Of a stretch of DNA of 25,736 nucleotides, positions 8,295 through 25,501 are shown one piece after another. The notes beneath the pieces are model-generated. The model was not told the DNA's origin and did not search any database. It saw only the letters and a list, made by a program, of their open reading frames with translations. Source of the DNA: Clostridia bacterium. Lineage in GTDB: Bacteria > UBA6262 > WVXT01 > JAUXBS01. The stretch lies in the NCBI GenBank assembly GCA_030618495.1, contig JAUXDE010000009.1, positions 1-25,736 on the forward strand, written 5' to 3'. A program made the translations under genes and the position numbers. Within the stretch, counting starts at the first letter, position 1; every line of letters starts with the position of its first letter.

Positions 8295-8315
8295 AAAAAG
8301 AAACTATTCCCTTTC

Positions 8316-9506: not shown

Positions 9507-9521
9507 TGTTCCTTTCCTTTA

Positions 9522-10361: not shown

Positions 10362-10409
10362 TTTTTTTCTCCTTGTTACTTATGTGATTAAATACTTGAA
10401 TATATAAAT

Positions 10410-10438
10410 ATATTATCACAAGATTGAGGTATAGTCAA
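10410..10438 (-). promoter_or_regulatory. Promoter for cassette 2 (minus strand)
   Basis: Read on the minus strand: TTGACT at 10438-10433, a 17-base spacer, then TAATAT at 10415-10410. It lies about 50 bases before the cassette 2 lipoprotein start. It is back to back with the cassette 3 promoter. Confidence 0.5.
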
Positions 10439-10469
10439 GGGTTTTTGTAAAAACTTACAATTTTATTAC

Positions 10470-10498
10470 TTGACGAATATGAAGAAATAGCGTATAAT
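10470..10498 (+). promoter_or_regulatory. Promoter for cassette 3 (plus strand)
   Basis: TTGACG at 10470-10475, a 17-base spacer, and a perfect TATAAT at 10493-10498. A second TATAAT occurs at 10504-10509. The lipoprotein gene begins at 10535 behind GGGAGA, leaving a short leader. Confidence 0.65.
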
Positions 10499-10534
10499 AA
10501 AGGTATAATACACGGACTCAATGGGAGAATAACT

Positions 10535-11401
10535 ATGAAAAAACATATTATTATTATAGTTTTATTGATAACATCGACATTATTTATCACATCCTGCGAT
10601 GATTTAACAAGGAATCTTAACATCTTTGCCTGGCTCGACCCGCCAGATTCTATAGAACAGAAGATGGAAACGGCAGCCTATTATATGGAAAAAGGGAATA
10701 TTGATAACTATAAAGCCGCATTGGATATTTATAAGGAAATATGGGATGATGACAGGTATAACAGCGATGCGGCTTACGGTTACGCAACAGCGTATGCCAG
10801 GTATAATGAAATTGAGCAGGAGGTAGTGGCCCCGCTCATATCTATCATGGCGCTGATAGCCGACCTGAAGAGCGTAACCCCCGTGACTCTTTTCGCGCGT
10901 CTTTATGAAAGCGATGAAGAAGGAGAAGCCGAACTCAGCAACCAGCAGATTGCGAGTTATAATATATCAGTAAAGGTATCCGATGTGCTTAACGATACCA
11001 GCGCCGTTAAAGGACTTGCGTATGATATAGATAATGAATATTATCATGGCAGGGTCAAGAGCCAGGATGTATGGCTGGATGCTGTTATCGCCCATCTCCA
11101 CAGGTGCAGTTCAACGATAACCACGAGTGACGGAGATCCTGATCCAGCCGTAACTTTGAAGCTTACGTGGAATCCTGTCGACAAGAAAATCGAACTAAAC
11201 CTGGCCGAGGTTATTGAATGGCAGAAAAAGAACCTGAGTGAAAAAAATGTAATACTGAATGCTTCAGCAGAGAGCCTGGGGCATGCCATTTCAATACTGG
11301 CGCTTCATACCGGAATGGAAGAGCTGGAAGAGTTAAACAAGCAGCTTACCAATGTGACGGATTATTTTAACAATTTCATAAACTATTTGCAGGGCTTATA
11401 A
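10535..11401 (+). CDS. Cassette 3 lipoprotein
   Basis: The 288-aa product has a signal peptide ending in ITSC (lipidated Cys21). The motif NIFAWLDPP follows about nine residues later, again matching the other two cassette lipoproteins. Residues ~42-95 look TPR-like: AAYYMEKGNIDNYKAALDIY, then DAAYGYATAYARYNEIEQ. The rest is mostly helical. Near residues 190-210 there is a short stretch rich in Ser, Thr and Asp (SSTITTSDGDPDP), and the end is a predicted helix (DYFNNFINYLQGL). No named family was recognised. The gene has its own strong promoter and is followed two bases after its stop by its barrel partner, so the lipoprotein-then-barrel order is kept in all three cassettes. Confidence 0.78.
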   Translation: MKKHIIIIVLLITSTLFITSCDDLTRNLNIFAWLDPPDSIEQKMETAAYYMEKGNIDNYKAALDIYKEIWDDDRYNSDAAYGYATAYARYNEIEQEVVAPLISIMALIADLKSVTPVTLFARLYESDEEGEAELSNQQIASYNISVKVSDVLNDTSAVKGLAYDIDNEYYHGRVKSQDVWLDAVIAHLHRCSSTITTSDGDPDPAVTLKLTWNPVDKKIELNLAEVIEWQKKNLSEKNVILNASAESLGHAISILALHTGMEELEELNKQLTNVTDYFNNFINYLQGL

Positions 11402-11403
11402 TT

Positions 11404-13032
11404 ATGACTATGAGAAAACCGGCGGTAAGAATCGTAATTCTGTTTGTTTCATTCATGGGGCTGGCTGGAAACAGGGCATATCCACAGTCGGCAAGGCCCC
11501 TGGATTACTACGATTATTATACGATGTCCATGGGTGATGCCAAGATTGCGGTATTGAATCCCAATCCCAGGGAAAACGCGCTCTTCCTGCATAACCCCGC
11601 GGGGATGTCCTACATACCGAAAAAAAGGAAGAGGCAGTTGATAAGGCTTCCTTTCCAACTCATGATGAGAACGGTTAACCCGAAGAGAAAGGATGTATTT
11701 GAATGGGGGGAAAGGCTTATACAAACATGGATTAACGAGGCGAGGTTCCTGATTGCTGTCGCGACTACCGATGACTGGAATTATATAAAAAATATGTCAA
11801 AAGATGAACTCTACAACAACTTGCTGGAACCAAACGAGCAGATGAAAAACAATATTCTCTACCAGCTTTATGATGAAGAAATCGGCTATCTGATGCGGGG
11901 GTACTGGGACCTTTATTCCGGGAACAAAACTTTGCCTGAAATATATGCGGAAAATCCGGAATTCGAGGAGCACCTGGAGGATGCGCAAGAAGGAACCGAT
12001 CACGTAAAGAGCAATTTCTCTAACACGGAAATAGTTGCAAGGATGGACACCCGTTCAACATTAGGATGGCTCGGAAAAAAGATTGACAATCTTTTTAATA
12101 TAAACAATATTTTTGAAAGCGCCCTTTCGTGGGATTTCGGCGCTACGGGTTTCCTTCATCCCCGCTCTGAATCTTTACTGCAGGCAAGTGAAGGGCCTTA
12201 CACGCCTTTCTGGCTCATTGACCTTGAGGTGGATACCGGTTACAGCCTGGGTGTATCAAAGAAAATTGATTTTGACATGGGATCCAGCGGGACAATGCCT
12301 TTATCGTTAGGTTTCAGGTACAACAAGCTGTACAGGTTTGCGCTTGATTCGTATATGTCACCGTCTACCATTCTCAGCGCCCTGTTTGGCTCCGGTGTAT
12401 TATCCGGCGGGTCAAACCCCACGGAATTGTTCTATGCCCTGGGAGGCGAGGTTATTGACAAAATGGTGATGGGGACCGCGGATTCATTTGAAATGGGATT
12501 ATTATTCGAACCTCCCGGAATACCGCTGATGTTCGGGGCGGTTGCGAGGAATGTGGGAGGAACGAATATTTACCAGGCGGATATTGTCGGAAATAGAATA
12601 GTTGCCAGTGATACGGTTGTCGGGGGAATAAATCAGAGTTTTGACGTGGGGGTGTCCTATAAAACCGTAACTGATATAGGAAACAGGAGTTTATTGGTCG
12701 CGTTGGATTTAAGGGACATGGGCGGGCTTGAAGAAAGCATATTCCTGAAGCTGCATTTCGGCGGTGAATACGAACTGGTAAAGGATTCAGTTTTTATAAG
12801 AGCAGGCGTTAACCAGGGATACATAACGTATGGTATTTCAGCGGTTGCGAACCTGGTAATCTGCAAGTTATACTTTGAAGCTTCAAAGTACGAGGCGGAA
12901 AAATTCGGCAGCCGCCTGCCGGGAGTTCATACCGTAGACCCGTACTATACGTACGGTCTCAGCCTGAGAATTAAAACGCCACTGCCGTTGAAGTTGAAAG
13001 CCAATCAGGACGAAGAGGATATGTATTTCTAG
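11404..13032 (+). CDS. Cassette 3 outer-membrane beta-barrel with large insert, PorV/UPF0164-like
   Basis: The 542-aa product is the largest of the three barrels. A signal peptide (~1-28) is followed by YYTMSMGDAKIAVLNPNPRE and LHNPAGMSYI, the family opening in a diverged form. Residues ~85-245 are a charged, helical-looking insert missing from the other two barrels. The C-terminal half returns to the family pattern: EMGLLFEPPGIPLMFGAVAR, then LVALDLRDMGG, then KLHFGGEYEL, then IRAGVNQGYITYG, and YFE. The protein ends with EEDMYF, a terminal Phe after a short acidic tail. The start has only a weak ribosome binding site and lies two bases after the lipoprotein stop, so translation is probably coupled. 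Function unknown. Confidence 0.78.
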   Translation: MTMRKPAVRIVILFVSFMGLAGNRAYPQSARPLDYYDYYTMSMGDAKIAVLNPNPRENALFLHNPAGMSYIPKKRKRQLIRLPFQLMMRTVNPKRKDVFEWGERLIQTWINEARFLIAVATTDDWNYIKNMSKDELYNNLLEPNEQMKNNILYQLYDEEIGYLMRGYWDLYSGNKTLPEIYAENPEFEEHLEDAQEGTDHVKSNFSNTEIVARMDTRSTLGWLGKKIDNLFNINNIFESALSWDFGATGFLHPRSESLLQASEGPYTPFWLIDLEVDTGYSLGVSKKIDFDMGSSGTMPLSLGFRYNKLYRFALDSYMSPSTILSALFGSGVLSGGSNPTELFYALGGEVIDKMVMGTADSFEMGLLFEPPGIPLMFGAVARNVGGTNIYQADIVGNRIVASDTVVGGINQSFDVGVSYKTVTDIGNRSLLVALDLRDMGGLEESIFLKLHFGGEYELVKDSVFIRAGVNQGYITYGISAVANLVICKLYFEASKYEAEKFGSRLPGVHTVDPYYTYGLSLRIKTPLPLKLKANQDEEDMYF

Positions 13033-13073: not shown

Positions 13074-13102
13074 TTGACATGATTATTTTAATTTATTATT
13101 AT
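13074..13102 (+). promoter_or_regulatory. Promoter of the hydrogenase operon
   Basis: Perfect TTGACA at 13074-13079, a 17-base spacer, TATTAT at 13097-13102. Transcription would begin near 13109 and read all the hydrogenase genes. The Rex-like operator lies just downstream of the start, where bound repressor would block RNA polymerase. Confidence 0.65.
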
Positions 13103-13127: not shown

Positions 13128-13145
13128 ATGTGAAAGTTTTCACAA
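13128..13145. promoter_or_regulatory. Rex-type operator (redox-sensing repressor box)
   Basis: The sequence ATGTGAAAGTTTTCACAA is a palindrome TGTGAA-N4-TTCACA. The established Rex consensus is TTGTGAA-N4-TTCACAA; only the first base of the left arm differs. Rex represses at low NADH/NAD+ and releases when NADH rises, and it is known to control hydrogenase and fermentation genes in several phyla. No rex gene is in the window, so its presence in the genome is not shown. Confidence 0.65.
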
Positions 13146-13167
13146 TATCAAACGGAAAGAACCTTAA

Positions 13168-14184
13168 ATGTCGATTTATTATCTCACCAAGAACAGCTGG
13201 AAGCGCCTGTTGTCCGGTCTCACGGAAACCTGCGATATATATGTATTAAAGGAATGTAACGGCAGCCTTTCTTATGAGTTGCTGGTCAAAGAAAGCCTTT
13301 CCTCCGATGAAATCGTTTTCGGCGGGGTTCGGGCGGTACAGTCCGTTAAGTCCTTTTTTCACCTTTACGCAGAGGATGTTTCAAAAGTAAAGAGCCAGCC
13401 CAGGAAGAGGATTATAGTGGGCGTTAAGGCATGCGACCTTACTGCTCTTGCGGTGATGGATAAAATGTTTATGGAAGGCGACTGCGTGGATCCCTTTTAT
13501 AAGATGAAGAGGGATAATACCGTGATAATCACAAGCGACTGCACCAAGCCGAATAACTACTGTTTTTGCACCCTGCTTGGCAACAAGCCGTATTCAGAGA
13601 AAGGATTTGACCTTAATATTTCCCAGTCCAAGGATGGTTTTATAGTTGAGGTTGGTTCGGATAAGGGAAAAGCCCTGGTTGATGGAAACAGGAGTATATT
13701 CGGGGGAGAAGCAAAGGAAAACCTGAATGAAGACAGGGTAAAATCAAGGGAGAAGGTGTTAGAAAAAGTAAAACAAATAAATGCGGAATTCAACCTGAAA
13801 GCCGGGTTCTGGAATGACCTGTCAAAAAAACACAATTCACCCGGATGGAAGACTGAGTCCGAAATGTGCGTGGAATGCGGGGCGTGCACCAATGTTTGCC
13901 CATCCTGTTACTGTTTCCTGCTTGCGGATATCCCGGGCAAGGATGATTTCAGCAGGATGAAGTACCAGGATTCCTGCCAGTACTCGGGTTATGCGAGGGT
14001 AGCCGGGGGGGCGAGTCCGCGTCCTGAAATTCATGAGAGGTTCAGGAACAGGTATCTCTGCAAGTATGAGTACAGGCCGGCTTCGTTGGATTTAGTGGCA
14101 TGTACCGGTTGCGGAAGGTGTATAGAGGCTTGCCAGGGAAAGATAGATAAAAGGAAAGTGCTTGCAGGTATATTGAAGAAGTAA
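13168..14184 (+). CDS. hydB: Sulfhydrogenase beta / AsrA-like 4Fe-4S electron-transfer subunit
   Basis: The 338-aa product matches the HydB/AsrA layout. The N-terminal domain has the conserved GVKACDLTAL (Cys89), SDC (Cys125) and YCFC (Cys132, Cys134) region. Two [4Fe-4S] motifs follow: Cys234, 237, 240, 244 (CVECGACTNVCP) and Cys312, 315, 318, 322 (CTGCGRCIEAC). In group 3b sulfhydrogenases and anaerobic sulfite reductase this subunit passes electrons between the flavin subunit and the catalytic part. Here the usual partners HydA and HydD are absent, and a group 4 hydrogenase follows instead. It is the first gene after the promoter and Rex-type site, and its partner flavin gene starts four bases after its stop. 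The ribosome binding site GGAAAG is modest. Confidence 0.85.
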   Translation: MSIYYLTKNSWKRLLSGLTETCDIYVLKECNGSLSYELLVKESLSSDEIVFGGVRAVQSVKSFFHLYAEDVSKVKSQPRKRIIVGVKACDLTALAVMDKMFMEGDCVDPFYKMKRDNTVIITSDCTKPNNYCFCTLLGNKPYSEKGFDLNISQSKDGFIVEVGSDKGKALVDGNRSIFGGEAKENLNEDRVKSREKVLEKVKQINAEFNLKAGFWNDLSKKHNSPGWKTESEMCVECGACTNVCPSCYCFLLADIPGKDDFSRMKYQDSCQYSGYARVAGGASPRPEIHERFRNRYLCKYEYRPASLDLVACTGCGRCIEACQGKIDKRKVLAGILKK

Positions 14185-14188: not shown

Positions 14189-15007
14189 ATGGATAAGAAT
14201 ATATATAAACCAATAGAAGCTGTAGTAGAAAAGGTTATAACCGAAACCTCTAATATCAAGACCTTTGTGCTTAAACCGGAGGAAGAGATATTATTTAAGA
14301 CAGGTCAGTTTATTGAGTTGACGGTGCCGGGATTTGGTGAAGGCCCTTTTACTCCGTCATCCTCTCCATATGAAACCGACAGGATTGAAGTAACGATAAT
14401 GGATGTTGGGAAATTGACCGGAAAACTTCATGCGATGAAACAGGGCGCAAAGGTAGGGATAAGAGGCCCTTACGGTAATGGCTATCCGGTAGAGCAGTTC
14501 TACAATAAGGAAGTTCTTATACTTGGCGGCGGGGTTGGCATGGCTCCATTGAGGTCTTTCCTTCTTACCCTGCTTAAGGAATCAGAAAGGTTCAAGAAAA
14601 TCATCCTGTGCTACGGTTCAAAGACCCCCGGGGATGTGGTTTATAAAGATTCATTTCCCACATGGAAGAAGGAAAAAAACCTGAGGATTCTAAGGAGCGT
14701 TGACAAGGCTGACAAGGGTTGGAAGGAAACGGAAGGACTTGTTACTGTACTGCTTGATAAGGTCAAGCCTAACCTTAAAAACGGTGTTGCTATAGTATGC
14801 GGTCCGCCGATTATGATGAAGTTTGGCACTTTCAAACTGCTGGAAGTGGGCTACAAGCCGGAACAGATATATTTATCCATGGAAAGGAACATGTCCTGCG
14901 GGCTCGGCAAGTGCGGTCACTGCGGACTGGGCAAGTACTATGTCTGCAAGGACGGCCCCGTGTTCACGTACGATATGATAAAAGATATCCCGGAGGTGTG
15001 GGCATAA
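14189..15007 (+). CDS. hydG: Sulfhydrogenase gamma / AsrB-like FAD- and NAD(P)-binding [2Fe-2S] subunit
   Basis: The 272-aa product is a ferredoxin-NADP reductase-type protein. The FAD domain covers residues ~8-100, with FTPSSSP (54-60) at the flavin-binding position and RGPYGNGYP (92-100). The NAD(P) domain starts with LGGGVGMAPLRS (112-123) and includes CGPPIMM (204-210). The C-terminal [2Fe-2S] site uses Cys237, 242, 245 and 253 (CGLGKCGHC and YVCKDGP), as in dihydroorotate dehydrogenase electron-transfer subunits. It would oxidise NADH or NADPH, or reduce the oxidised form, and exchange electrons with the HydB-like protein. The sequence does not tell me which nucleotide is used. It lies between the HydB-like and HycB-like genes, with 2-4 base gaps. 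Confidence 0.87.
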   Translation: MDKNIYKPIEAVVEKVITETSNIKTFVLKPEEEILFKTGQFIELTVPGFGEGPFTPSSSPYETDRIEVTIMDVGKLTGKLHAMKQGAKVGIRGPYGNGYPVEQFYNKEVLILGGGVGMAPLRSFLLTLLKESERFKKIILCYGSKTPGDVVYKDSFPTWKKEKNLRILRSVDKADKGWKETEGLVTVLLDKVKPNLKNGVAIVCGPPIMMKFGTFKLLEVGYKPEQIYLSMERNMSCGLGKCGHCGLGKYYVCKDGPVFTYDMIKDIPEVWA

Positions 15008-15009: not shown

Positions 15010-15498
15010 ATGAAGAAACTGTTTCTTGATTACGAAAAATACAGCAAGACCAAAGATTTCAAAACGGATTGTGATTTCTTCTATCATCCGGACAATAAAG
15101 GGGTTAGTTCACTGCTCGAACTTGCCGCGTTTTCGCTTGTGTGCAGGCAGTGCGAGGAAGCTCCCTGCGTGAAGGCATGCCCGAAGGACGCGCTTGAAAA
15201 GCAAAAGGACGGGACGGTAAAAAGATACAACATGAGATGCGTTTCGTGCAAGTCCTGTGTTATAGCCTGCCCATTCGGTACCATATACCCGGAAATAATT
15301 GACTTTTTTGCGCACAAATGCGATTATTGCCTGGAAAAATCAAAAGGTGAAGTTCCTCTTTGCGTGAAAACCGCAACGGACAAAGAAGTCCTGCAGTATA
15401 TAGATGCTAGTGAAGACAGGGGAAACTATAACTATGCGGTGGGAGAGAATCTTATTGTTCATGCCGTCCCCTGGAAGAAGGAAAAGAAAAAGAAATGA
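15010..15498 (+). CDS. HycB/CooF-like ferredoxin subunit with three of four [4Fe-4S] clusters
   Basis: I chose the ATG at 15010, after GGAGG at 14993-14997; a longer frame back to 14797 would overlap the flavin gene deeply. The 162-aa product has the HycB-family four-motif layout. Motif II is Cys45, 48, 53, 57, motif III is Cys77, 80, 83, 87, and motif IV has Cys104, 107, 118. Motif I is degenerate: the first three Cys positions are Tyr11, Thr14 and Phe17, and only Cys21 remains. Motif IV's last Cys is Ala122. Since motif I Cys 1-3 pair with the last Cys of motif IV, exactly one cluster is lost and three stay complete. It likely links the diaphorase pair to the membrane hydrogenase. Its stop overlaps the next start (ATGA). 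Confidence 0.85.
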   Translation: MKKLFLDYEKYSKTKDFKTDCDFFYHPDNKGVSSLLELAAFSLVCRQCEEAPCVKACPKDALEKQKDGTVKRYNMRCVSCKSCVIACPFGTIYPEIIDFFAHKCDYCLEKSKGEVPLCVKTATDKEVLQYIDASEDRGNYNYAVGENLIVHAVPWKKEKKKK

Positions 15499-16421
15499 AG
15501 ATACTGTTTCAATATATAATTTTTCCCGGATTCCTGTTTACTGCGATTGTCGGAATGATCGCCAGCTGGATAGACAGGAAGGTCACTGCAAGGGTGCAGT
15601 GGAGAGTGGGTCCGCCGATTCTTCAGCCGCTGTATGATTTTATAAAACTGCTTGGAAAAGAAATAATTATACCAAAAGGCGCCTCCAGGGGGACTTTCCT
15701 GCTTTCTCCCGTATTCGGAATGTCGGCAATAGTCATCGTGTCAACGATGTTGTGGCTTGTGATTCTTTCGCCTGAGAACAGCTTTACCGGTGATTTAATA
15801 GTTATACTGTATTTGCTCGTCATACCTTCAATTGCCGTGATTATCGGGGCTTTTGCTTCAAAGAACCCCCTTGCATCGCTTGGAGCGTCAAGGGAGATGA
15901 AACTTATACTAGCCTATGAACTGCCTTTTATCCTTATAGTGTTTATACCGGTAATCAAGGCAGGTTACACCATAAAGCTCGGTGAACTTTTAGCGTTTCA
16001 GGCAAAAAACGGTGTATTCCTTAATCACCCGTCGTGTATTATTGCTTTTATCGTTGCCATAATGTGCATGCAGGCAAAACTCACTCTTGTGCCTTTTGAC
16101 ATGCCGGAGGCTGAAACAGAGATTATGGGAGGCGCGTATATTGAATACTCGGGAGCGCCATTGGGAATATACAAGCTTACAAGAATGATGATGCTGTTCG
16201 TTGTGCCGATGTTCCTCGTTATAATGTACATGGGCGGAATCATATTTGAAGGCTGGCATATCCTGTGGGGTATACTGAAATACGTCCTTCTTCTTGTAAT
16301 CATCGTACTTATAAGGAACACCAGCCCCAGGGTCAGGATTGACCAGGCAATGAGGTTTTTCTGGAGGCCTATGACAATTCTGGCTGTTGTGGGAGTATGT
16401 CTGGCGTATTTGGGATTATAA
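15495..16421 (+). CDS. Group 4 [NiFe] hydrogenase membrane subunit, NuoH-like (MbhM/EchB/HycD family)
   Basis: The 308-aa product is a multi-helix membrane protein, with about eight hydrophobic segments. WIDRKVTARVQWRVGPPILQ at residues ~17-36 is the conserved quinone-site loop region of NuoH-type proteins. FDMPEAETEIMGGAYIEYSG (~residues 198-217) is the acidic cytoplasmic loop shared by complex I and group 4 hydrogenases. This subunit anchors the hydrogenase core in the membrane and connects it to the antiporter arm. The PEAETEI...EYSG form is the usual one in group 4 hydrogenases. It overlaps the HycB-like gene by four bases and ends one base before the small-subunit gene, so translation is coupled. 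Confidence 0.92.
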   Translation: MKILFQYIIFPGFLFTAIVGMIASWIDRKVTARVQWRVGPPILQPLYDFIKLLGKEIIIPKGASRGTFLLSPVFGMSAIVIVSTMLWLVILSPENSFTGDLIVILYLLVIPSIAVIIGAFASKNPLASLGASREMKLILAYELPFILIVFIPVIKAGYTIKLGELLAFQAKNGVFLNHPSCIIAFIVAIMCMQAKLTLVPFDMPEAETEIMGGAYIEYSGAPLGIYKLTRMMMLFVVPMFLVIMYMGGIIFEGWHILWGILKYVLLLVIIVLIRNTSPRVRIDQAMRFFWRPMTILAVVGVCLAYLGL

Positions 16422-16844
16422 ATGAGTATTAAACTGAACGCATTAACAAAATCTTTATGGGTGTTTCATATGGCGGCAAGCCCATGCAACAACTGCGATA
16501 TTGAAATACTCGATGCCCTGACTCCCAGGCATGATATAGAAAGATTCGGGATGCTGCTTGTGGGCAGTATAAAGCACGCCGATGTACTGCTCGTTACCGG
16601 GTGTATTAATAAGAAGGTGATCGATAGGATGAAGAGAGTGTATGAGCAGGCGCCAAAACCCATAATAGTTGTGGCAGTCGGAGGCTGCGCATGCACGGGT
16701 GGCATGTTCAGGGATAGTTACAACTATGCCGGCCCCCTGGATAAAGTTTTTCCGGTTGATGCTTACGTGCCAGGTTGCCCGCCCCAGCCGGAGGCGCTGA
16801 TAGACGCGGTTGTCAAGGTAATAAATAAATTGAAGGGAAAATAA
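16422..16844 (+). CDS. [NiFe] hydrogenase small subunit, NuoB-like (MbhJ/EchC family)
   Basis: The 140-aa product is a NuoB/MbhJ-type protein carrying a single proximal [4Fe-4S] cluster. Ligands visible are Cys22 and Cys25 in SPCNNCDIE, Cys89 (or Cys91) in VGGCACTGG, and Cys119 in PGCPPQPEA. The CNNCDIE form is characteristic of group 4 hydrogenase small subunits, where complex I NuoB has adjacent Cys. The protein is short, as expected for this group, and lacks the extra clusters of group 1-3 small subunits. It passes electrons to the NiFe site in the large subunit encoded two genes downstream. It starts directly after the NuoH-like stop. Confidence 0.93.
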   Translation: MSIKLNALTKSLWVFHMAASPCNNCDIEILDALTPRHDIERFGMLLVGSIKHADVLLVTGCINKKVIDRMKRVYEQAPKPIIVVAVGGCACTGGMFRDSYNYAGPLDKVFPVDAYVPGCPPQPEALIDAVVKVINKLKGK

Positions 16845-16845
16845 C

Positions 16846-17277
16846 ATGGCAGAGGATGTTGTAGGTAAAATAAAGAATAAATTTACCGGTAAGATAATAA
16901 AAAAGACAATAAAGAAATCCGATAAGAGAGTCTATATTTATATAAACCCCGCGAATATCGTTGAAGTGATAAATTATGTTTTTCATGACCTTAAAGCAAG
17001 GTTTCAAATTGCTTCGGGAATTGATACTCCTGAAGGGATTGAAATCCAGTATCATTTTGCTTTTGACAAACTTGACAGGATTGTTTCAATATGCGTTCTG
17101 CTTGACAGGGAAAATCCCGAGATAGATTCCGCCTGCCAGGGTATCAAAGCGATAGAATGGATTGAGAGGGAAATCGCTGAATTACTCGGGGTAAAATTCA
17201 GGAATCATCCGGACATGAGGCATCTTTTACTCAGGGATGACTGGCCTAAAGGCAAGTATCCCTTAAGAAGGAAATAA
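16846..17277 (+). CDS. Hydrogenase subunit, NuoC-like 30-kDa family (MbhK-like)
   Basis: The 143-aa product has the NuoC/30-kDa signature near its end: WIEREIAELLGVKFRNHPDM then RHLLLRDDWP and KYPLRRK (residues ~105-143). The middle (~45-95) matches the usual beta-sheet domain, with the IEIQYHF...IVSICVLLDRE pattern. The N-terminal ~25 residues are very basic (KIKNKFTGKIIKKTIKKSDK). In group 4 hydrogenases this subunit is either separate, as here and in Mbh/Ech, or fused to the large subunit, as in HycE. It is structural, with no cofactor. It sits one base after the small-subunit stop and one base before the large-subunit start. Confidence 0.9.
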   Translation: MAEDVVGKIKNKFTGKIIKKTIKKSDKRVYIYINPANIVEVINYVFHDLKARFQIASGIDTPEGIEIQYHFAFDKLDRIVSICVLLDRENPEIDSACQGIKAIEWIEREIAELLGVKFRNHPDMRHLLLRDDWPKGKYPLRRK

Positions 17278-17278
17278 A

Positions 17279-18463
17279 ATGGCTAAAACTATTATTCCGG
17301 TAGGCCCATACCACCCGCTGCAGGAAGAGCCCGAATTTTTTAAACTGCACGTTGAAGGGGAGAAGGTGGTGGGGCTGGAGATAGAAATAGGTTACAACCA
17401 CCGCGGGATTGAACAACTCTGCGAACAAAAGACCTTTGACCAGGTTCCCTTCGTTGTGGAAAGAATCTGCGGAATATGCTCAACCTCGCATCCTATTGCC
17501 TGTGTTCAGGCGATAGAGGACGCTGGTGATATCAAGGTTCCGGAAAGGGCGCTTTACATAAGAACCGTAATTGCCGAACTGGAACGCATACACAGCCACC
17601 TGCTGTGGCTGGGCTTAGCAGGCCACTTCATAGGTTATAACACAGTGTTCATGTGGGCGTGGAAGTACAGGGAACCCGTTCTTGATATATGCGAGAAACT
17701 TACCGGTAACAGGAACCATTACGCCATGATGAAGCCGGGCGGAGTGAGGCGCGACATTGACGAAAACGATTTCCCGTGGGTTCTCAAGGAAATGGATAAG
17801 CTGGTTCCCGCGCTTGACCTGTTCAAGGGGGCGGTGCTTGACGACCCGGTAATTCATGCCAGGTTAAAGGGCATAGGGGTGCTTACTAAAGAAGAAATAA
17901 TAAATTACAGCGCGCTGGGTCCCACGGCAAGGGCAAGCGGTGTGGCAATTGACGTGAGAAGGGACCATCCATATGCCGCTTATGACAGGATTGACTGGAA
18001 AGTCATAACCTGTGAGGAAGGCGATGTCTTTGCGAAGGCGGTGGTGAGAATTCTTGAAATGTACGAGGCGGCAAGTATAGTAAAACAGTGCCTCAAGAAG
18101 ATGCCGAAGGGCGAGATAGATTCAAAGCCAAAGGAAATCCATCCCGGTGACGGCATAGGTATCGCGGAAGCCCCCAGGGGCGAGGTTTACCATTTCACCA
18201 GGAGCGATGGCAGTAACAGGCCTGCAAGGCATAAGGTGAGGGCGCCGAGTTTCATGAACGTCCCGACGAATCATATTGCCGCGGTTGGCGGTACCGTTTC
18301 GGACGCCACCATAGTGCTTGCGGCGATTGACCCGTGTTACTGCTGTACCGAAAGAATGGCGGCGATTGACAACAGGACAAAGAAGACAGTTTTAAACAGC
18401 CAGGATTTAATAAGGTTATCACAGGAGAAAACCGAAAGAATAAGAAAGCAATTGGGAAAATAA
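17279..18463 (+). CDS. Group 4 [NiFe] hydrogenase large (catalytic) subunit, NuoD-like
   Basis: The 394-aa product has all four NiFe ligands: Cys64 and Cys67 in RICGICSTSHP, and Cys353 and Cys356 in DPCYCCTERM. These Cys are missing from complex I NuoD, so this is a real hydrogenase. The DPCxxCTxR ending puts it in group 4, close to HycE/EchE/MbhL. About 35 residues follow Arg359. In E. coli HycE the tail is cut after the equivalent Arg, before Met, by HycI, and here Arg359-Met360 is in the same place while a HycI-type protease gene closes the operon. The reaction is reversible 2H+ + 2e- to H2 on the cytoplasmic side of the membrane. Subgroup (4d, 4g or other) needs a phylogeny. Confidence 0.95.
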   Translation: MAKTIIPVGPYHPLQEEPEFFKLHVEGEKVVGLEIEIGYNHRGIEQLCEQKTFDQVPFVVERICGICSTSHPIACVQAIEDAGDIKVPERALYIRTVIAELERIHSHLLWLGLAGHFIGYNTVFMWAWKYREPVLDICEKLTGNRNHYAMMKPGGVRRDIDENDFPWVLKEMDKLVPALDLFKGAVLDDPVIHARLKGIGVLTKEEIINYSALGPTARASGVAIDVRRDHPYAAYDRIDWKVITCEEGDVFAKAVVRILEMYEAASIVKQCLKKMPKGEIDSKPKEIHPGDGIGIAEAPRGEVYHFTRSDGSNRPARHKVRAPSFMNVPTNHIAAVGGTVSDATIVLAAIDPCYCCTERMAAIDNRTKKTVLNSQDLIRLSQEKTERIRKQLGK

Positions 18464-18464
18464 G

Positions 18465-20252
18465 ATGAATTTAATAATTTATTCAATTTCTCTGTCAATA
18501 ATAGCGGGTATAATGTGCCTGTTTATTCCTAAGAGAACAAGAGGAGTGGCTGAGACCCTGGGTGTAATAGTTTCTCTTGTTACCTTTATAATGACTATTA
18601 TGATGTTTGGCAGGGAATTTGTTTCTAAATGGTTTCTGATAGACAACCTGAGCAGGTTTGTCGTCATGGGTATAGGTATGTTCGGGTTCCTGATAGTCCT
18701 ATATTCTTTAAAATACATGCAGGGCAGGGACAGGATTAACGAGTATTACGCGTACCTGTTAATTACCATAGGCGCGTCAATCGGCGCAGTTCTTTCAAAT
18801 CATCTTATACTGCTTCTCGTTTTCTGGGGAGTTCTCGGCCTGACGCTGTACATGCTTGTTGGTATAGGAGGGTCGGATGCCTCGTCGACTGCCAAGAAAA
18901 CCTTTATTATAATAGGCGGCTCCGACGTTATCATGATTCTTGGTGTTGCCGTTACCTGGGTGCTGGGTAAGACTTTCATAATGAGTGGAATAGAAGTTTC
19001 GGTTAACAGCGGAATGTCGATGCTTGCATTCATATGCCTTGCCGTAGCGGCTTTTGCAAAAGCCGGCGCCATGCCCCTGCATTCATGGATACCCGACTGC
19101 GCGGAGAAAGCGCCCGTTTCCGTAACTGCATTCCTGCCGGCTTCTCTGGATAAATTAGTCGGTATATACTTCCTTGGCAGGATTTCAATGAAGATGTTTG
19201 TCCTGAATAAGGCGATGGGGCAGATGCTTTTAATCATAGGGGCAATCACCATTGTTGCGGCAGTTATGATGGCCCTCATACAGCATGATTTTAAAAGATT
19301 GTTAGGATACCATGCCGTATCGCAGGTGGGATACATGGTACTTGGAATAGGGACATGCAGTCCCATAGGCATAGCGGGTGGTTTATTCCACATGTTGAAT
19401 AATACTATATATAAATGCTGCCTTTTCCTCGGCAGCGGGGCGGTGGAAAAAAGAACAAAGACATCAGACCTTGATAAACTCGGGGGGCTTGCCAGGTTCA
19501 TGCCGGTAACTTTTGTGACGTTTGTTATTGCCGCATTGTCCATTTCAGGCGTTCCGCCGTTCAATGGTTTTGTTTCCAAGTGGATGATATACCAGGGCAT
19601 AGTTGACCTCGGCAGGAAAGGCGATAAGCTGTGGCTCGTATGGATGGTCGCGGCGATGTTCGGCAGCGCGCTTACGCTGGCGAGTTTCATGAAACTCATA
19701 CACGCTGTTTTCCTGGGACAGAGGGAAGGCGGAGAAAAAGTGAAGGAAGTTTCTTCATTGATGTGGATTCCCATGGTGGTTCTTGCGGGGTTGTGTATGA
19801 TTTTCGGCGTACTCGCATTCACGGTTCCCCTGGAAAAATTCATTCTGCCCGCCGTACCGGGGGTTTCGTTTACCGGCTTGTTCTCACCGAGCCTGGTTAC
19901 CTTAATGATTATCCTGGGAGTTATCCTTGGATTAATTATATACATGTTAAGTAACTTTAAAAACATAAGAGAGGACAGTCTCCCGTATATTGGCGGTGAA
20001 GAACTGCCTGTAGAGACCAGGGTTACAGGGGTTGACTTTTACCGGTCAATAAAGGATTCAAAAATTCTCGGGGGGATATACAGGGCTGCCGATAAGAAAT
20101 CATTTGATATTTATGATGTTGCCAAACGTGTTCTGAATTACTTTATCGGGATGCTCAAGTACCTGCATTCCGGATTACTGTCAAACTATGTTATCTGGGT
20201 AGTGGCGGGGATACTGGTTTTATTGATTGTTCTGATGAAAGGTTCCATATAA
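18465..20252 (+). CDS. NuoL/EchA-like antiporter-type membrane subunit (595 aa)
   Basis: The 595-aa product is a proton_antipo_M family membrane protein of about 14-16 helices. The TM7 region AAFAKAGAMPLHSWIPDCAE contains the expected Lys199. QHDFKRLLGYHAVSQVGYM (~residues 273-291) is the family's TM9 motif. The C-terminal ~100 residues (SLPYIGGEELPVET, then a DIYDVAKRVLNYFIG helix and a last TM helix) resemble the lateral-helix end of NuoL/HyfB/EchA proteins. The TM5 position that is normally Glu reads FWGVLGLTLYMLVG, so Gly122 replaces it. With the MbhD/E protein encoded next, it looks like MrpA split into two genes. It couples electron transfer to Na+ or H+ movement. It starts one base after the large-subunit stop. 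Confidence 0.9.
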   Translation: MNLIIYSISLSIIAGIMCLFIPKRTRGVAETLGVIVSLVTFIMTIMMFGREFVSKWFLIDNLSRFVVMGIGMFGFLIVLYSLKYMQGRDRINEYYAYLLITIGASIGAVLSNHLILLLVFWGVLGLTLYMLVGIGGSDASSTAKKTFIIIGGSDVIMILGVAVTWVLGKTFIMSGIEVSVNSGMSMLAFICLAVAAFAKAGAMPLHSWIPDCAEKAPVSVTAFLPASLDKLVGIYFLGRISMKMFVLNKAMGQMLLIIGAITIVAAVMMALIQHDFKRLLGYHAVSQVGYMVLGIGTCSPIGIAGGLFHMLNNTIYKCCLFLGSGAVEKRTKTSDLDKLGGLARFMPVTFVTFVIAALSISGVPPFNGFVSKWMIYQGIVDLGRKGDKLWLVWMVAAMFGSALTLASFMKLIHAVFLGQREGGEKVKEVSSLMWIPMVVLAGLCMIFGVLAFTVPLEKFILPAVPGVSFTGLFSPSLVTLMIILGVILGLIIYMLSNFKNIREDSLPYIGGEELPVETRVTGVDFYRSIKDSKILGGIYRAADKKSFDIYDVAKRVLNYFIGMLKYLHSGLLSNYVIWVVAGILVLLIVLMKGSI

Positions 20253-20798
20253 ATGGAAATTATCTTTGTTTTATTGCTTCTTATGATAATCGGTTCCATA
20301 GTTGCGTTGGAAACCAAGGACCTGCTTGCCGCGGTGATTTCAGTCGGAGCGGTTGGTCTTATTCTCAGTGTTACCTTTCTTTTCCTTGCGGCTCCCGATA
20401 TAGCAATCGTCCAGATTGTCGTGGAGGTTCTGGTGCTGGTCATATTGATACGCGCTACCATAAGCAGGGATACAACGGCGGTTTCAGGCGACAGGGAGTT
20501 CTTCGGCATGGCTGTGAGCATTGTCCTGCTGGTTGTGATCGTCATATTCGGAATCAGGGTTTTCAGTGACATCCCGCAGTTCGGCAAGCCCATTATCGCG
20601 TTGTTCAGGGATGCCCCGTCAAATACGTATATAAGCAGGGGATTGAAGGATACGGGAGCGGCAAATATCGTGACCTCGGTCATACTTGATTACCGCGCCT
20701 ATGATACTCTTGGCGAAGCCACGGTATTATTCACGGCGATACTGGGAGCCCTGGCAATACTCAGATCTAAAGCCAGGAAGAAATTAAAAGGAAAATAA
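20253..20798 (+). CDS. MbhD-MbhE fusion (MrpA C-terminal-like) subunit
   Basis: The 181-aa product combines two short subunits that are separate genes in Pyrococcus mbh. Residues 1-~85 are MbhD-like: three helices and the motif APDIAIVQIVVEVLVLVILI with the conserved Glu. Residues ~88-181 are MbhE-like, with ANIVTSVILDYRAYDTLGEA near the end, the family signature. The same pair forms the C-terminus of MrpA in Na+/H+ antiporters. In Mbh structures this part contributes to the ion path between the hydrogenase and antiporter modules. The gene starts immediately after the NuoL-like stop and ends directly before mrpB. Confidence 0.9.
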   Translation: MEIIFVLLLLMIIGSIVALETKDLLAAVISVGAVGLILSVTFLFLAAPDIAIVQIVVEVLVLVILIRATISRDTTAVSGDREFFGMAVSIVLLVVIVIFGIRVFSDIPQFGKPIIALFRDAPSNTYISRGLKDTGAANIVTSVILDYRAYDTLGEATVLFTAILGALAILRSKARKKLKGK

Positions 20799-21284
20799 AT
20801 GGTTGGAATGACCTTAATCGTAAAAACAGTTGCCCGTTGGGTTAAAAGTTTCATATTCTTGTATGGTATATACATTACCCTGTACGGACACCTGACACCC
20901 GGAGGCGGGTTTGCCGGCGGAGTCATCGTTGCCTGCTCATTCATTCTGCTTATTCTGGCTTTTGGCAAGGAAAAGGCGCTTAAGAGGATAAGTAAAGCGC
21001 TTGCTTCAGAACTTGACAGCATAGGGGCATTGATGTTTCTTATTATCGCTTTACTGGGTATATTTGCCGGCGGGACTTTCTTTATTAACTTCATCCAAAA
21101 AAATGCTCCCGGGCAGGATTTTCACCTGTTAAGCGCCGGGACCATAATACTTTCCAATATAGCGATTGCGGTAAAGGTGGGAAGTTCGCTGTTTATGGTG
21201 TTTGTAATTCTTGCGGTCCTGAGGGTTGTAAAAAAGGGAGACAAACTTGAAATGATTCAGACTAATATGAGGGGCGAGGAATGA
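20799..21284 (+). CDS. mrpB: Na+/H+ antiporter subunit MrpB / MbhF
   Basis: The 161-aa product has four hydrophobic helices and the MrpB signature YGIYITLYGHLTPGGGFAGG (residues ~24-43). LLSAGTIILSNIAIAVKVG (~108-126) is the family's second conserved helix. MrpB is required for Na+/H+ exchange in Mrp complexes and is found as MbhF in Mrp-linked hydrogenases. An ATG opens the frame directly after the MbhD/E stop. The basic/acidic C-terminus (KKGDKLEMIQTNMRGEE) is cytoplasmic by charge. Its stop overlaps the mrpC start in an ATGA arrangement. Confidence 0.93.
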   Translation: MVGMTLIVKTVARWVKSFIFLYGIYITLYGHLTPGGGFAGGVIVACSFILLILAFGKEKALKRISKALASELDSIGALMFLIIALLGIFAGGTFFINFIQKNAPGQDFHLLSAGTIILSNIAIAVKVGSSLFMVFVILAVLRVVKKGDKLEMIQTNMRGEE

Positions 21285-21628
21285 TATATATTTTATGCTT
21301 AATATTTTTCATGGTGGGATTATACGGCGTGCTCGTAAAAAAGAACATCATTAAAATTGTCCTCGGACTTATAATTATGGAATATGCCGTTAACCTTTTC
21401 CTGATAATGCTTGGCTACAGGGAAGGGGGGGTGGCGCCGATTATTTCAGAAGGCGACAGTATAACAGAATTTATAAAACATTCTGTTGACCCTCTGCCGC
21501 AGGCGCTTGTGCTTACGTCAATCGTAATAGGCCTTGGAGTCATTGCATTAATGGTAGCAATATGCATAAGGCTGTATGAAAAATATGGGACGTTTGATAT
21601 AACCGAGATGAGGAGACTGAAAGGTTGA
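21281..21628 (+). CDS. mrpC: Na+/H+ antiporter subunit MrpC / MbhG, NuoK-like
   Basis: The 115-aa product is a three-helix NuoK/MrpC protein. The pattern VGLYGVLVKKNIIKIVLGLI followed by EYAVNLFLIMLGY (residues ~12-47) includes the buried acidic and Asn residues typical of the family. DPLPQALVLTSIVIGLGVIA (~69-88) is the conserved third helix. It belongs to the Na+/H+ antiporter arm. The start overlaps the mrpB stop and the end overlaps the mrpD start by four bases if the TTG is used, so the whole set is translated as a coupled block. Confidence 0.94.
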   Translation: MIYILCLIFFMVGLYGVLVKKNIIKIVLGLIIMEYAVNLFLIMLGYREGGVAPIISEGDSITEFIKHSVDPLPQALVLTSIVIGLGVIALMVAICIRLYEKYGTFDITEMRRLKG

Positions 21629-23115
21629 ACATGATTCCGTTATTTGTTGCAGTGCCTCTGGCAGGCGCTTTTATAATTCCAATGCTTTCAAGGAAATTTA
21701 AATGGTTCCCTGATGTGCTGGGTAACCTTGTCACGCTTGCCCTGGTCATTATGTCCTTTGCGGTAATAGGCAAGTCTGGTGTGTACAGCATGGGAGCATG
21801 GAAAGCGCCCATAGGCATCGTCATGGTTCTTGACGGATTAAGCGTTTTACTTCTTGTCTCTATAAACGTAATCGCGTTTGCATCCACGTTGTATTCTATT
21901 AAATACATGGAGCAATACACGTCAAAACTTCGTTACTACAGTCTTTTCCTTTTAATGCTTGCCGGGATGAACGGGGTTGTCCTCAGCGGCGACATGTTTA
22001 ACCTGTTCGTTTTTCTTGAAATCGCCTCGGTAGCATCCTATGCTCTTGTGGGATTCGGGTGCGAGCATGAGGAACTGGAAGCATCCTTTAAGTATCTTGT
22101 TTTAGGGACAGTGGCTTCCACTTTCATACTCCTTGGCATAGGAATGACTTACGGTTCGATAGGTTCTCTGAACATGGCTCAGATTTCAGAGCAAATCAGC
22201 CAAAATGGCATGAATAACGCATTACTATTTGCGATTGCATTGTTTATTATGGGGTTCGGACTAAAGGCTGCCCTCGTGCCGTTCCATGCATGGCTTCCCG
22301 ATGCGCACCCTTCGGCTCCTGCTCCTATTTCTTCAATGCTTTCAGGTGTCCTGATCAAGGCGCTGGGTATATATACGCTGGTAAGGTTTCTTTTTAACGT
22401 TGTTGGAGTGGATGAACGGCTGCTGATGATATTGATGGTGTTAGGCGCGCTGTCAATGGTAATAGGAGTAATGCTTGCGTTTGGCCAGTGGGATTTCAAG
22501 AGACTTCTTGCTTATCACAGTATAAGCCAGGTTGGTTATATTATCCTGGGTATTGGGCTTGGTACTCCTTTGGGTATACTTGGAGGGTTGTTCCACCTTA
22601 TTAATCACTCAGCATTTAAATCTCTATTGTTCCTGAATGCCGGCGCGGTTGAGTATTCAACCGGAACGAGGGATTTGCAGGAACTGGGAGGGATAAGGGA
22701 AAAAATGCCTGTAACGGCAAATACTTCTCTTGTAGCCTCAATGTCCATTGCCGGTATTCCGCCGTTTAACGGTTTCTGGAGTAAATTGATTATTATTATT
22801 GCCTGTGTACAGGCAGGGCGCCCTGTATTTGCGGCGCTGGCGGTATTTGCAAGTATTCTTACGCTTGCTTCTTTTCTTAAGGTTCAAAAATATGTTTTCT
22901 TTGAAAAACTGAAGGAAAAATGGAATGATTTAAGGGAAGTACCTGCGTTGATGAGTCTGCCGATGGTACTGCTTGCTCTTCTGTGTATCGTGATGGGTGT
23001 ACTGCTTCTGCCGATAGGAAATACAGGAGTACTTGAGAATATTAATATTTTAGAACCTGCCGTTAAAGTTATCATGGACGGCACGGATTATGCGTCAAAA
23101 ATATTAGGTATGTAA
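21625..23115 (+). CDS. mrpD: Na+/H+ antiporter subunit MrpD / MbhH, NuoN-like
   Basis: The 496-aa product is a ~14-helix antiporter subunit with a full set of the usual charged residues. Glu132 is in FVFLEIASVASYALVG (TM5), Lys214 in GFGLKAALVPFHAWLPDAHP (TM7), and Lys245 in LSGVLIKALGIYTLVRF (TM8). DFKRLLAYHSISQVGYIILG (TM9) is typical. It therefore has the normal ion-pumping machinery that the NuoL-like subunit upstream partly lacks. Two starts are possible: TTG at 21625 with AGGAG nine bases upstream, overlapping the mrpC stop, or ATG at 21631 behind GAAAGG. They differ by two residues, so length is 494 or 496 aa. Confidence 0.94.
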   Translation: MNMIPLFVAVPLAGAFIIPMLSRKFKWFPDVLGNLVTLALVIMSFAVIGKSGVYSMGAWKAPIGIVMVLDGLSVLLLVSINVIAFASTLYSIKYMEQYTSKLRYYSLFLLMLAGMNGVVLSGDMFNLFVFLEIASVASYALVGFGCEHEELEASFKYLVLGTVASTFILLGIGMTYGSIGSLNMAQISEQISQNGMNNALLFAIALFIMGFGLKAALVPFHAWLPDAHPSAPAPISSMLSGVLIKALGIYTLVRFLFNVVGVDERLLMILMVLGALSMVIGVMLAFGQWDFKRLLAYHSISQVGYIILGIGLGTPLGILGGLFHLINHSAFKSLLFLNAGAVEYSTGTRDLQELGGIREKMPVTANTSLVASMSIAGIPPFNGFWSKLIIIIACVQAGRPVFAALAVFASILTLASFLKVQKYVFFEKLKEKWNDLREVPALMSLPMVLLALLCIVMGVLLLPIGNTGVLENINILEPAVKVIMDGTDYASKILGM

Positions 23116-23129
23116 TACCGGAGTTTTGA

Positions 23130-23639
23130 ATGCGAAAATTAGTGATGTTTATAGTTTCATTTATAACCTGGATGCTGCTGGTATTCAGGGGAAAAGCGGG
23201 AACCTGCTGTTTTAACCTGCAGGATGTGATTGCAGGATTGTTTGCAGCCATGCTGACTGCTCTTATTTTTGGTGAGACCTTTACCAAAAACCCGCATAAA
23301 TTCTTTGATTTGCGAAGGTATCTATGGTTCCTGGTTTACTTGCCCATGTTCCTTTACTGGTGCCTGCTGGCTAACCTTGACGTGGTCTACAGGGTTTTTC
23401 ATCCGAAAATGCCGATAAACCCGGGTATAGTAAAGGTGAAAACAACCCTTAAGAGCAAATCGGGTATAACCGCCCTGTGTAATTCAATAACCCTGACTCC
23501 GGGCACCCTGTGCGTGGACCTGACGGACGACGGTTATATTTACATTCACTGGATTAACGTTGAGAGTCAGAATGTTGAAGAAGCAAGCAGGATGATAATT
23601 CAGAAGTTTGAAAAAATTCTAACAAGGATATTTGAATGA
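23130..23639 (+). CDS. mrpE: Na+/H+ antiporter subunit MrpE / MbhA
   Basis: The 169-aa product has two to three N-terminal membrane helices and then a cytoplasmic domain, the MrpE layout. LRRYLWFLVYLPMFLYWCLL (~61-80) precedes ANLDVVYRVFHPKMPINPGI (~81-100), which is the MNHE signature. CNSITLTPGTLCVDLTDDGY (~116-135) is the second conserved block. MrpE is needed for assembly and full activity of Mrp complexes. CGGAG at 23118-23122 supports the ATG, and a 14-base gap separates it from mrpD. The end overlaps mrpF. Confidence 0.93.
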   Translation: MRKLVMFIVSFITWMLLVFRGKAGTCCFNLQDVIAGLFAAMLTALIFGETFTKNPHKFFDLRRYLWFLVYLPMFLYWCLLANLDVVYRVFHPKMPINPGIVKVKTTLKSKSGITALCNSITLTPGTLCVDLTDDGYIYIHWINVESQNVEEASRMIIQKFEKILTRIFE

Positions 23640-23908
23640 GCGCGGATATTATTTACCAGGTATTTTTTGGTGTGTTGCTGGCGTGCTGCTCGATCTGTAT
23701 GTACCGGATAAGTTCGGGGCCCACTGTCCCCGACAGGACCGTAGCCATTGACATCATGGGTGTAGTCATGGTTGGTTTTTGCGCCATTCTGTCAATTGTA
23801 ACGGGCAAGGATTATTATATAAACATTGCGATTGCCTGGGCTCTACTGAGCTTCATAGGCACTCTTGCGCTGGCGAAGTTCCTGGAAGGTAAGGGATTCG
23901 ATGAATGA
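23636..23908 (+). CDS. mrpF: Na+/H+ antiporter subunit MrpF / MbhB
   Basis: The 90-aa product has three membrane helices. The MrpF signature is seen in YRISSGPTVPDRTVAIDIMG (residues ~23-42), with the conserved Asp in PDRTVAID that is part of the ion path. The C-terminal helix IALAWALLSFIGTLALAKFLE-like segment is typical of the family. It overlaps mrpE by four bases (ATGA) and mrpG by eight bases. The gene order E-F-G is the standard mrp order. Confidence 0.92.
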   Translation: MSADIIYQVFFGVLLACCSICMYRISSGPTVPDRTVAIDIMGVVMVGFCAILSIVTGKDYYINIAIAWALLSFIGTLALAKFLEGKGFDE

Positions 23909-24236
23909 GATTATAGGTTTAATATTTATTGCGGTAGGAGTTTTCTTTGACCTGGCAGGTTGTATCGGGCTGGCAAGACTGCCTGATATCTACAACCGGC
24001 TCCAGGCAGCAACGAAAAGCGTAACCCTTGGGACATGTCTTATTCTCGCCGGGTGTGCAGTATTTAAAGGAATCCTGTCCCCCATGGGTATAAAAGCTCT
24101 TATCTGCGGTGTTTTTATTTTACTGACGTCGCCGACGGCTGCCCACGCTCTTGCGCGGGGCGCCCACTTGTTTGGAGTGAAATTGTGGGACAAGAGTGTC
24201 TGCGACATGTATGAACAGGACAAAAAGAACTTTTAG
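23901..24236 (+). CDS. mrpG: Na+/H+ antiporter subunit MrpG / MbhC
   Basis: I chose the ATG at 23901 (eight-base overlap with mrpF) over an upstream in-frame ATG at 23865, because MrpG proteins begin just before this first helix. The 111-aa product has three helices and the family pattern GCIGLARLPDIYNRLQAATK (~20-39) followed by TSPTAAHALARGAHLFGV (~77-94). MrpG is a small structural member of the antiporter arm. With this gene the Mrp set B-G is complete. It is the last gene before the only long gap inside the operon. Confidence 0.92.
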   Translation: MNEIIGLIFIAVGVFFDLAGCIGLARLPDIYNRLQAATKSVTLGTCLILAGCAVFKGILSPMGIKALICGVFILLTSPTAAHALARGAHLFGVKLWDKSVCDMYEQDKKNF

Positions 24237-24360: not shown

Positions 24361-24972
24361 ATGAAGTATCCGAAACTCAGGGAATTGAGGGAAGCCGTTA
24401 AGGCGTTGATAAAGGGGCCCTATACGAGTAAGTTCCCTTATGAACCTTACATTGCGGAAAATTTTCGCGGTAAGCCCGAATATGTTGAAGATGAATGCAT
24501 AGGATGCGGAGCCTGCGCGGAAGTCTGCCCGGCAAGGGCGATAGACGTGGTTGAGAAAATAAACAGGAACGGTAAATCAACAAGAAAATTGGTTCTGCAC
24601 TATGATATATGTATATTTTGCGGGCAGTGCGTGGCGAACTGCACTTCTGAAAAGGGGATAAAGCAGACACACGAATACGCCCTGGCATTGTTTGACAGGA
24701 AACTGGCGGTTGAGGAAGTGGAAAAGGAACTTGTCCTGTGCCAGGAATGCGGAGAAGTTATCGGACCCAGGGACCACCTTGTTTTCCTGGCGAATAAACT
24801 CGGGCTGCTTGCCTCGGGTAACCCTCTCTTGATGCTGACTTCCCAGGAAGAACTGGGGCTGTTAAAGGAAGATCCTGCTGAGAAGTCCTCGCCTGAAGGA
24901 AGAGCGAACATGTTCAGGGTTTTGTGCCCGAAATGCAGGCATGAAACCGTTCTTACAGATATCTGGGGATAA
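24361..24972 (+). CDS. Hydrogenase 4Fe-4S subunit, NuoI/HyfH/MbhN-like, with C-terminal zinc-ribbon-like Cys pairs
   Basis: The 203-aa product has two [4Fe-4S] motifs: Cys46, 49, 52, 56 (CIGCGACAEVCP) and Cys84, 87, 90, 94 (CIFCGQCVANC). They are spaced as in NuoI and the HycF/EchF/MbhN subunits. A C-terminal extension (~125-203) contains CQEC and CPKC pairs that could bind one zinc ion, a feature also seen in HycF-like subunits. In Mbh this subunit takes electrons from ferredoxin and hands them to the small subunit. Here it could also receive them from the diaphorase route. AAGGAG is present upstream, with the structured gap region before it. Confidence 0.9.
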   Translation: MKYPKLRELREAVKALIKGPYTSKFPYEPYIAENFRGKPEYVEDECIGCGACAEVCPARAIDVVEKINRNGKSTRKLVLHYDICIFCGQCVANCTSEKGIKQTHEYALALFDRKLAVEEVEKELVLCQECGEVIGPRDHLVFLANKLGLLASGNPLLMLTSQEELGLLKEDPAEKSSPEGRANMFRVLCPKCRHETVLTDIWG

Positions 24973-25003
24973 TCTATCACTATTTTCCCAACGGGAATAT
25001 AAC

Positions 25004-25501
25004 ATGTTTGATTCTGACAATTCTCAATTAACGAAATTAAAAAAACTATTAAAACAAAAAACCCTCATCGTAGGTATAGGCAATCCTCTTAAGGGTGATG
25101 ACGGCGCAGGCCCGGAACTGATAAGGAAGCTTGAAGAAAAAAAACTCCCGGCTGGAAAATACCGGTTACTGGACGTTGGGGAAGCGCCCGAGAACTACCT
25201 TCACAATATTATAAAAGAAAAGCCGGATACGCTGATGCTGGTGGACGCGGTTGATATGAAAATATCCCCGGGGTCTGTAAAAATACTGAAATACGATGAT
25301 ATCCTTGACAACTCTCTTTCCACTCACAATGCTTCGTTAAAATTAACGATGGACTATATAAAATCGGAAATTAATACGGATATATTTATTGTTGGCATTC
25401 AGCCCGCGGGTGTTGGATTCGGCGACTCTATTTCAGCCGAAGTCAACGAAGCAATAAAAAAAATCTGCCGCATAATTGGAATTAAGGGGACATGTACCTA
25501 A
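25004..25501 (+). CDS. hycI: Hydrogenase maturation endopeptidase, HycI family
   Basis: I chose the ATG at 25004; an upstream in-frame ATG at 24941 would overlap the preceding gene by 32 bases. The 165-aa product has the hydrogenase maturation peptidase motifs: GIGNPLKGDDGAGPEL (24-39), GEAPENY (59-65), LVDAVDM (79-85), THNASLKL (107-114) and GIQPAGVGFG (131-140). These follow E. coli HycI more closely than HybD. The likely nickel-sensing residues are Asp32/33, Asp81 or Asp84, and His108. It would remove the C-terminal tail of the group 4 large subunit after Arg359 once nickel is inserted. The last six or so residues (IKGTCT) and the stop are encoded by the left arm of the palindromic repeat. 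Confidence 0.9.
   Translation: MFDSDNSQLTKLKKLLKQKTLIVGIGNPLKGDDGAGPELIRKLEEKKLPAGKYRLLDVGEAPENYLHNIIKEKPDTLMLVDAVDMKISPGSVKILKYDDILDNSLSTHNASLKLTMDYIKSEINTDIFIVGIQPAGVGFGDSISAEVNEAIKKICRIIGIKGTCT

Follow-up and report, generated by a model that had tools for sequence, protein, structure and literature searches.

A putative Rex operator between the promoter and first gene of a group 4 [NiFe] hydrogenase operon in a Clostridia bacterium

An 18-bp palindrome lies just downstream of a predicted promoter in the window, by which we mean the whole 25,736-nt stretch of DNA analysed here. The palindrome is very probably an operator for Rex, and this NADH-sensing repressor would then control an entire operon for a group 4 (Mbh-Mrp type) [NiFe] hydrogenase. 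Rex is bound to DNA at low NADH/NAD+ and is released by NADH (PMC13077300, PMC5317091); given this established behaviour, the operon is predicted to be silent when NADH/NAD+ is low and expressed when it is high. By analogy with the Rex family, a Rex dimer would sit on the DNA just past the transcription start when NADH/NAD+ is low, silencing the whole operon. When NADH accumulates, Rex would bind it and leave the DNA, as family members do, and the hydrogenase would be made. The enzyme could then vent surplus electrons as H2 via its ion-translocating complex, for which we infer both the direction of the reaction and the electron donor.

Operator, promoter and hydrogenase operon

The palindrome at 13128..13145 differs from the Rex consensus TTGTGAANNNNTTCACAA of Ravcheev et al. 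2012, as cited in PMC6391272 and PMC5317091, by a single mismatch at the first (outermost) base. The sequence-only reading had described a near-consensus Rex box, TGTGAA-N4-TTCACA with one outer-base change, and both its letters and its coordinates are exact. It had also placed the box about 20 bases past the expected start of a TTGACA-N17-TATTAT promoter. The two hexamers (TTGACA at 13074-13079 and TATTAT at 13097-13102) are indeed a consensus match, and with a transcription start near 13109 the box would span about +19 to +36. Its first base is 26 nt past the -10 hexamer and its last is 22 nt ahead of the ATG at 13168. The five nearest orthologous leaders have their own TTGAC(A/G) and TATAAT-like hexamers at the equivalent place. 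The box thus lies where a Rex site belongs, within or shortly past a promoter that serves redox metabolism or fermentation, here that of the hydrogenase operon. As the preceding gene is on the same strand and ends at 13032, the target is evidently the operon that starts at 13168. The features are as follows.

13074..13102, + strand: sigma-70-type promoter match, TTGACA - 17 nt - TATTAT, 11/12 consensus positions
13128..13145, no strand (palindrome): putative Rex operator ATGTGAAAGTTTTCACAA, one mismatch to TTGTGAAN4TTCACAA and conserved in orthologous leaders
13154..13159, + strand: likely ribosome-binding site GGAAAG, 8 nt ahead of the ATG, by direct reading of the sequence
13168..14184, + strand: first gene, AsrA / HydB-like iron-sulfur subunit, 338 aa (Pfam Fer4_22; scores below cut-off for NCBIfam ShyB, HydB and AsrA)
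14189..15007, + strand: AsrB / HydG-like diaphorase subunit, 272 aa (Pfam FAD_binding_6, NAD_binding_1 and DHODB_Fe-S_bind; NCBIfam AsrB/HydG/ShyC below cut-off)
15010..15498, + strand: ferredoxin-like 4Fe-4S subunit (Pfam Fer4_11; likely start at 15010 judged from the translation, within a longer ORF from 14797)
15495..18463, + strand: NuoH-, NuoB-, NuoC- and NuoD-like hydrogenase module (MbhM, J, K, L; Pfam)
18465..24236, + strand: Mrp-type antiporter module with two MrpD-like subunits, MbhD/E and MrpB, C, E, F, G (Pfam and NCBIfam; the last ORF, MrpG-like, from the translation only)
24361..25501, + strand: NuoI/HycF-like ferredoxin subunit and HycI-type hydrogenase maturation protease (NCBIfam and Pfam)

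The NuoD-like large subunit (17279-18463) keeps both CxxC nickel-iron ligand motifs, RICGIC and DPCYCC, and the HycI protease is encoded at 24941-25501. Together these are the features by which a group 4 (Mbh-Mrp type) [NiFe] hydrogenase is recognised, and they mark the predicted enzyme as a genuine [NiFe] hydrogenase rather than a relative of the MBS/MBX type. The operon also encodes two MrpD-like antiporter subunits (18465-20252 and 21625-23115), an arrangement more Mbx/MBS-like than classical Mbh; the nickel-iron ligands are nonetheless kept in the large subunit. Mrp-linked enzymes of Omnitrophota have been named 4g (PMC8542988). Ahead of the operon, the window from 5035 to 13032 holds several pairs of ORFs, some in one direction and some in the other, in which a lipoprotein/TPR-like ORF comes first and a PorV-like outer-membrane ORF second (6009/6762, 9522/8316 and 10535/11404). 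In the ORF at 5035-5991 the C-terminus consists of EEVPAEEVPA repeats, nearly identical and in succession.

Conservation of the box and its association with rex

The window contains one match to the Rex consensus at ≤1 mismatch, against a mean of 0.01 in dinucleotide shuffles, and this match is the sole such site in its own 1.69 Mb genome (98% complete), where a reversed control pattern gave 0. At ≤2 mismatches the genome has nine sites, the other eight all within open reading frames, and at ≤3 mismatches it has 99 matches against 90 for the reversed control. Since there is no genome-wide excess at this last threshold, the single-genome statistics alone would be modest, and conservation is the deciding evidence.

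The regulator that the sequence-only reading called for is present in the same genome as one full-length rex (G000:C60, 211 aa), scoring 243 bits against an NCBIfam Rex model cut-off of 126. The protein has DNA-binding and NAD-binding domains, passes several Rex model cut-offs and aligns along its whole length to solved Rex structures (E 5e-43), in which alignment its glycine motif GAGNLG and acidic FDND agree with the Rex fold for NAD(H) binding. Its DNA-binding region includes some unusual residues (RRDLSCLGQLGQRKVGY). Conservation of the box upstream of orthologous operons, on which that reading also depended, was found in G001, a member of the same genus, and in four genomes of another family in the same order. 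The box of G001, ATGTGAAAGATTTCACAA, has the identical outer A and lies 39 nt ahead of the orthologous gene; those of the other four are perfect and lie 34-41 nt ahead. Alignment of the leaders shows a constant box core, differing flanks and a promoter-box spacer that varies in both length and sequence.

In these four genomes of the same order rex is directly upstream of the box and operon; the rex frame of G004 contains one stop. Two perfect boxes in G098 are followed by rex and then by the hydrogenase genes, forming a rex-hydrogenase operon, and G032 has two 2-mismatch boxes ahead of its operon; the contig also carries rex, about 11 kb off and next to hyp-like maturation genes. Upstream of rex in G002 (L085:7848-10963) are a molybdopterin oxidoreductase gene and then a second HydB-like gene, perhaps a further oxidoreductase module close to the hydrogenase.

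Scanning genome contigs with a profile recovered 80 orthologous loci from many phyla, 78 of them with usable leaders. Perfect boxes were found in 7/78 leaders and ≤1-mismatch boxes in 20/78; including rex's own leader where rex comes first raises the count to 22, or to 30 at ≤2 mismatches. When 209 other distinct half-site permutations were scanned as palindromes, each matched at most one leader, and coding stretches gave 0. The ≤1-mismatch boxes occur in Bacteroidota, Omnitrophota, Ratteibacteria, Latescibacterota, Aerophobota and Auribacterota, and the boxed rows cluster on the tree, requiring 12 changes, so that 20/78 does not mean 20 independent events. The flanks fetched include a rex match at 16 of the 80 loci (at L114 as a fragment only), on the same strand in nine and divergent in seven, all seven in Bacteroidales. 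At genome level, rex was over the cut-off in 22/25 genomes with a box at ≤2 mismatches compared to 10/25 unboxed genomes (Fisher p 0.0009); three boxed genomes, possibly incomplete MAGs, had no detected rex, and ten unboxed genomes had one. After correction for the tree, the association runs in the right direction and is not significant, with too few pairs (8 independent pairs, 2.4 following versus 0.2 opposing).

The Bacteroidales loci L140, L144, L154, L157, L171 and L176 differ in layout: rex is divergent from the hydrogenase operon, and two palindromes lie between them, about 200 and about 20 nt ahead of the hydB-like gene. The second palindrome (mostly ATGTGAATCTTCTCACAT or close to it) is nearer to a plain TGTGA-N6-TCACA site, and these genomes are rich in Crp/Fnr proteins; dual control by Rex and Crp/Fnr is therefore possible in Bacteroidales.

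Alternative readings of the palindrome

The 16-bp core of the palindrome, TGTGAAAGTTTTCACA, fits the Crp consensus TGTGA-N6-TCACA exactly, and the genome encodes a Crp/Fnr protein with an HTH_Crp_2 domain (66 bits) adjoining argF, both of which favour a Crp/Fnr-family site bound by that regulator and not by Rex, a rival that the sequence-only reading does not raise. Such a regulator should be present wherever the site is conserved, but HTH_Crp_2 gave no match over the cut-off in nine genomes that have both rex and a ≤1-mismatch box, and no cNMP-binding domain was matched in the boxed relatives G002, G005, G098, G129 and G032. Furthermore, the gene adjoining the box is rex, not crp. Even sites gathered by the Crp core alone remain Rex-like at the distinguishing positions: of 41 such sites (related rows included), 31 have T at position 1, 34 have A at position 7, 26 have T at position 12 and 28 have A at position 18. 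The usual place for a Crp activator is ahead of the promoter and not at +19. Crp/Fnr is disfavoured as the binder, less decisively in this genome itself, and we consider this reading very unlikely. The regulator beside argF (L067:1192-2091) is conserved in G001, G003 and G004, and no cNMP-domain match was found in G002 or G005.

The close agreement between ≤3-mismatch matches and the reversed control would also suit a chance palindrome served by no regulator. The 0.01 matches expected in the window at ≤1 mismatch argue against this, as do the strict conservation of the box amid diverged flanks and its presence in 20/78 leaders against at most one per permuted palindrome, which leave chance scarcely credible. 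Rex might instead bind the box without its usual NADH response, or respond to other signals, so that the operon would not be NADH-controlled. The unusual residues in the DNA-binding region of the protein lend this some weight, but the agreement of GAGNLG and FDND with the NAD(H)-binding fold, together with the several Rex model cut-offs passed, makes it highly improbable.

Redox control, known systems and other Rex targets

The claim in the sequence-only reading that Rex represses the operon stands as a predicted operator placed for repression, with rex present and the box conserved. Its statement that binding blocks elongation is only one possibility, as a repressor at about +19 to +36 could hinder polymerase binding, promoter escape or elongation. 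The further claim, in which the box is independent support for NADH as an electron partner and not just for ferredoxin, does not follow: Rex also controls the ferredoxin-type Ech, and Rex control hence does not identify the electron donor. It is the diaphorase subunit (14189-15007), with its FAD-binding and NAD-binding domains, and not the operator, that suggests use of NAD(P)H by the predicted enzyme. A wider proposal, which we find nearly balanced and leaning towards doubt, is that the AsrA/AsrB-bearing Mbh-Mrp hydrogenase is repeatedly paired with Rex as its regulator in at least six phyla (those listed above for the box), with the enzyme acting as a dedicated NADH-triggered redox valve, probably fed by NADH and perhaps by ferredoxin as well.

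Hydrogenases of the Ech type are not known to carry the AsrA/AsrB diaphorase. Rex control of hydrogenases, including those of group 4, is already known from Ech in Caldicellulosiruptor and Ni-CODH/ECH in Parageobacillus. In Caldicellulosiruptor bescii, a Rex operator with gel-shift support precedes the Ech [NiFe] hydrogenase operon, 147 bp from the ATG (PMC6391272). The window likewise has a Rex site, predicted from sequence, ahead of a group 4 [NiFe] hydrogenase operon, whereas C. bescii differs in the distance of its site from the ATG, in being a Firmicute and in having a larger Rex regulon. In Parageobacillus and Thermolongibacillus the consensus TTGTGAA-N4-TTCACAA is found 31-37 bp ahead of the first Ni-CODH/ECH gene (PMC13077300), and in Calderihabitans Rex boxes precede cooS2-ech1 and hyd-3b (PMC13077300, PMC7306483). 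These systems share with the window operon a group 4 hydrogenase and predicted derepression at high NADH, but their electrons come from CO dehydrogenase and they belong to a different phylum. Caldithrix abyssi, like the relatives described here, has rex adjacent to a hydrogenase operon with a box in the leader; its enzyme, unlike that of the window, is an electron-bifurcating [FeFe] hydrogenase of a different family (PMC5317091).

The closest described gene cluster is that of the 'enigmatic' group 4 [NiFe] hydrogenase of Saganbacteria, with asrA, asrB, cooF and Mrp subunits, whose nearest relatives are in Zixibacteria and Omnitrophica and whose donor was left unknown (PMC6349859). It has the same AsrA/AsrB-like oxidoreductase module, Mbh-like hydrogenase and Mrp subunits as the window operon, and differs by an extra molybdopterin oxidoreductase; the paper makes no mention of Rex. 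We found no report, in the open-access papers searched, of Rex with AsrA/AsrB-Mbh hydrogenases or with Omnitrophica/Elusimicrobia, and the multi-phylum link between Rex and the AsrA/AsrB-bearing Mbh-Mrp hydrogenase appears to be unreported. The present analysis offers a predicted regulator, signal and promoter for this widespread hydrogenase of uncultured anaerobes, and widens predicted Rex control of energy-converting hydrogenases from the cultured Bacillota of the papers cited here to several candidate phyla and Bacteroidales. Because H2 from fermenters feeds methanogens and other partners, the timing of operon switch-on bears on the sources of H2 in anoxic habitats.

A scan for further boxes, as the sequence-only reading proposed, gave a divided result, with candidates in same-order genomes and no second credible site in the own genome. 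The recognisable Rex regulon of the own genome is one operon with a single credible site. No box lies ahead of its rex or fhs, the eight other ≤2-mismatch sites were rejected as targets for lying inside ORFs, and nothing convincing emerged at four loci with 3-mismatch sites, one of which, TTGTGACTTTAATTACAA, is intergenic and ahead of a PorV-like gene. An [FeFe] hydrogenase as a second target was found neither in this genome nor in four relatives.

In contrast, the four same-order genomes carry a perfect Rex box, TTGTGAAAATTTTCACAA, ahead of a panE-like ketopantoate reductase gene that is followed by fhs (L060:1501-1518, L053:236-253, L051:1501-1518, L089:2283-2300 and L058:1501-1518). One of these genomes, G005, has two boxed panE-fhs loci, one of them cut by a contig end. 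As fhs encodes the formate-tetrahydrofolate ligase of the Wood-Ljungdahl pathway, this arrangement suggests that Rex would also control that pathway in same-order genomes, as part of a coherent redox regulon. The rex gene of the own genome is preceded by a metF-like gene and a radical-SAM gene, and in G001 (L096:220-2888) the order is HycI-like protease, metV, metF and then rex. metVF encodes the methyl-branch reductase of the Wood-Ljungdahl pathway, and the gene order in G001 links rex to this branch in the genus.
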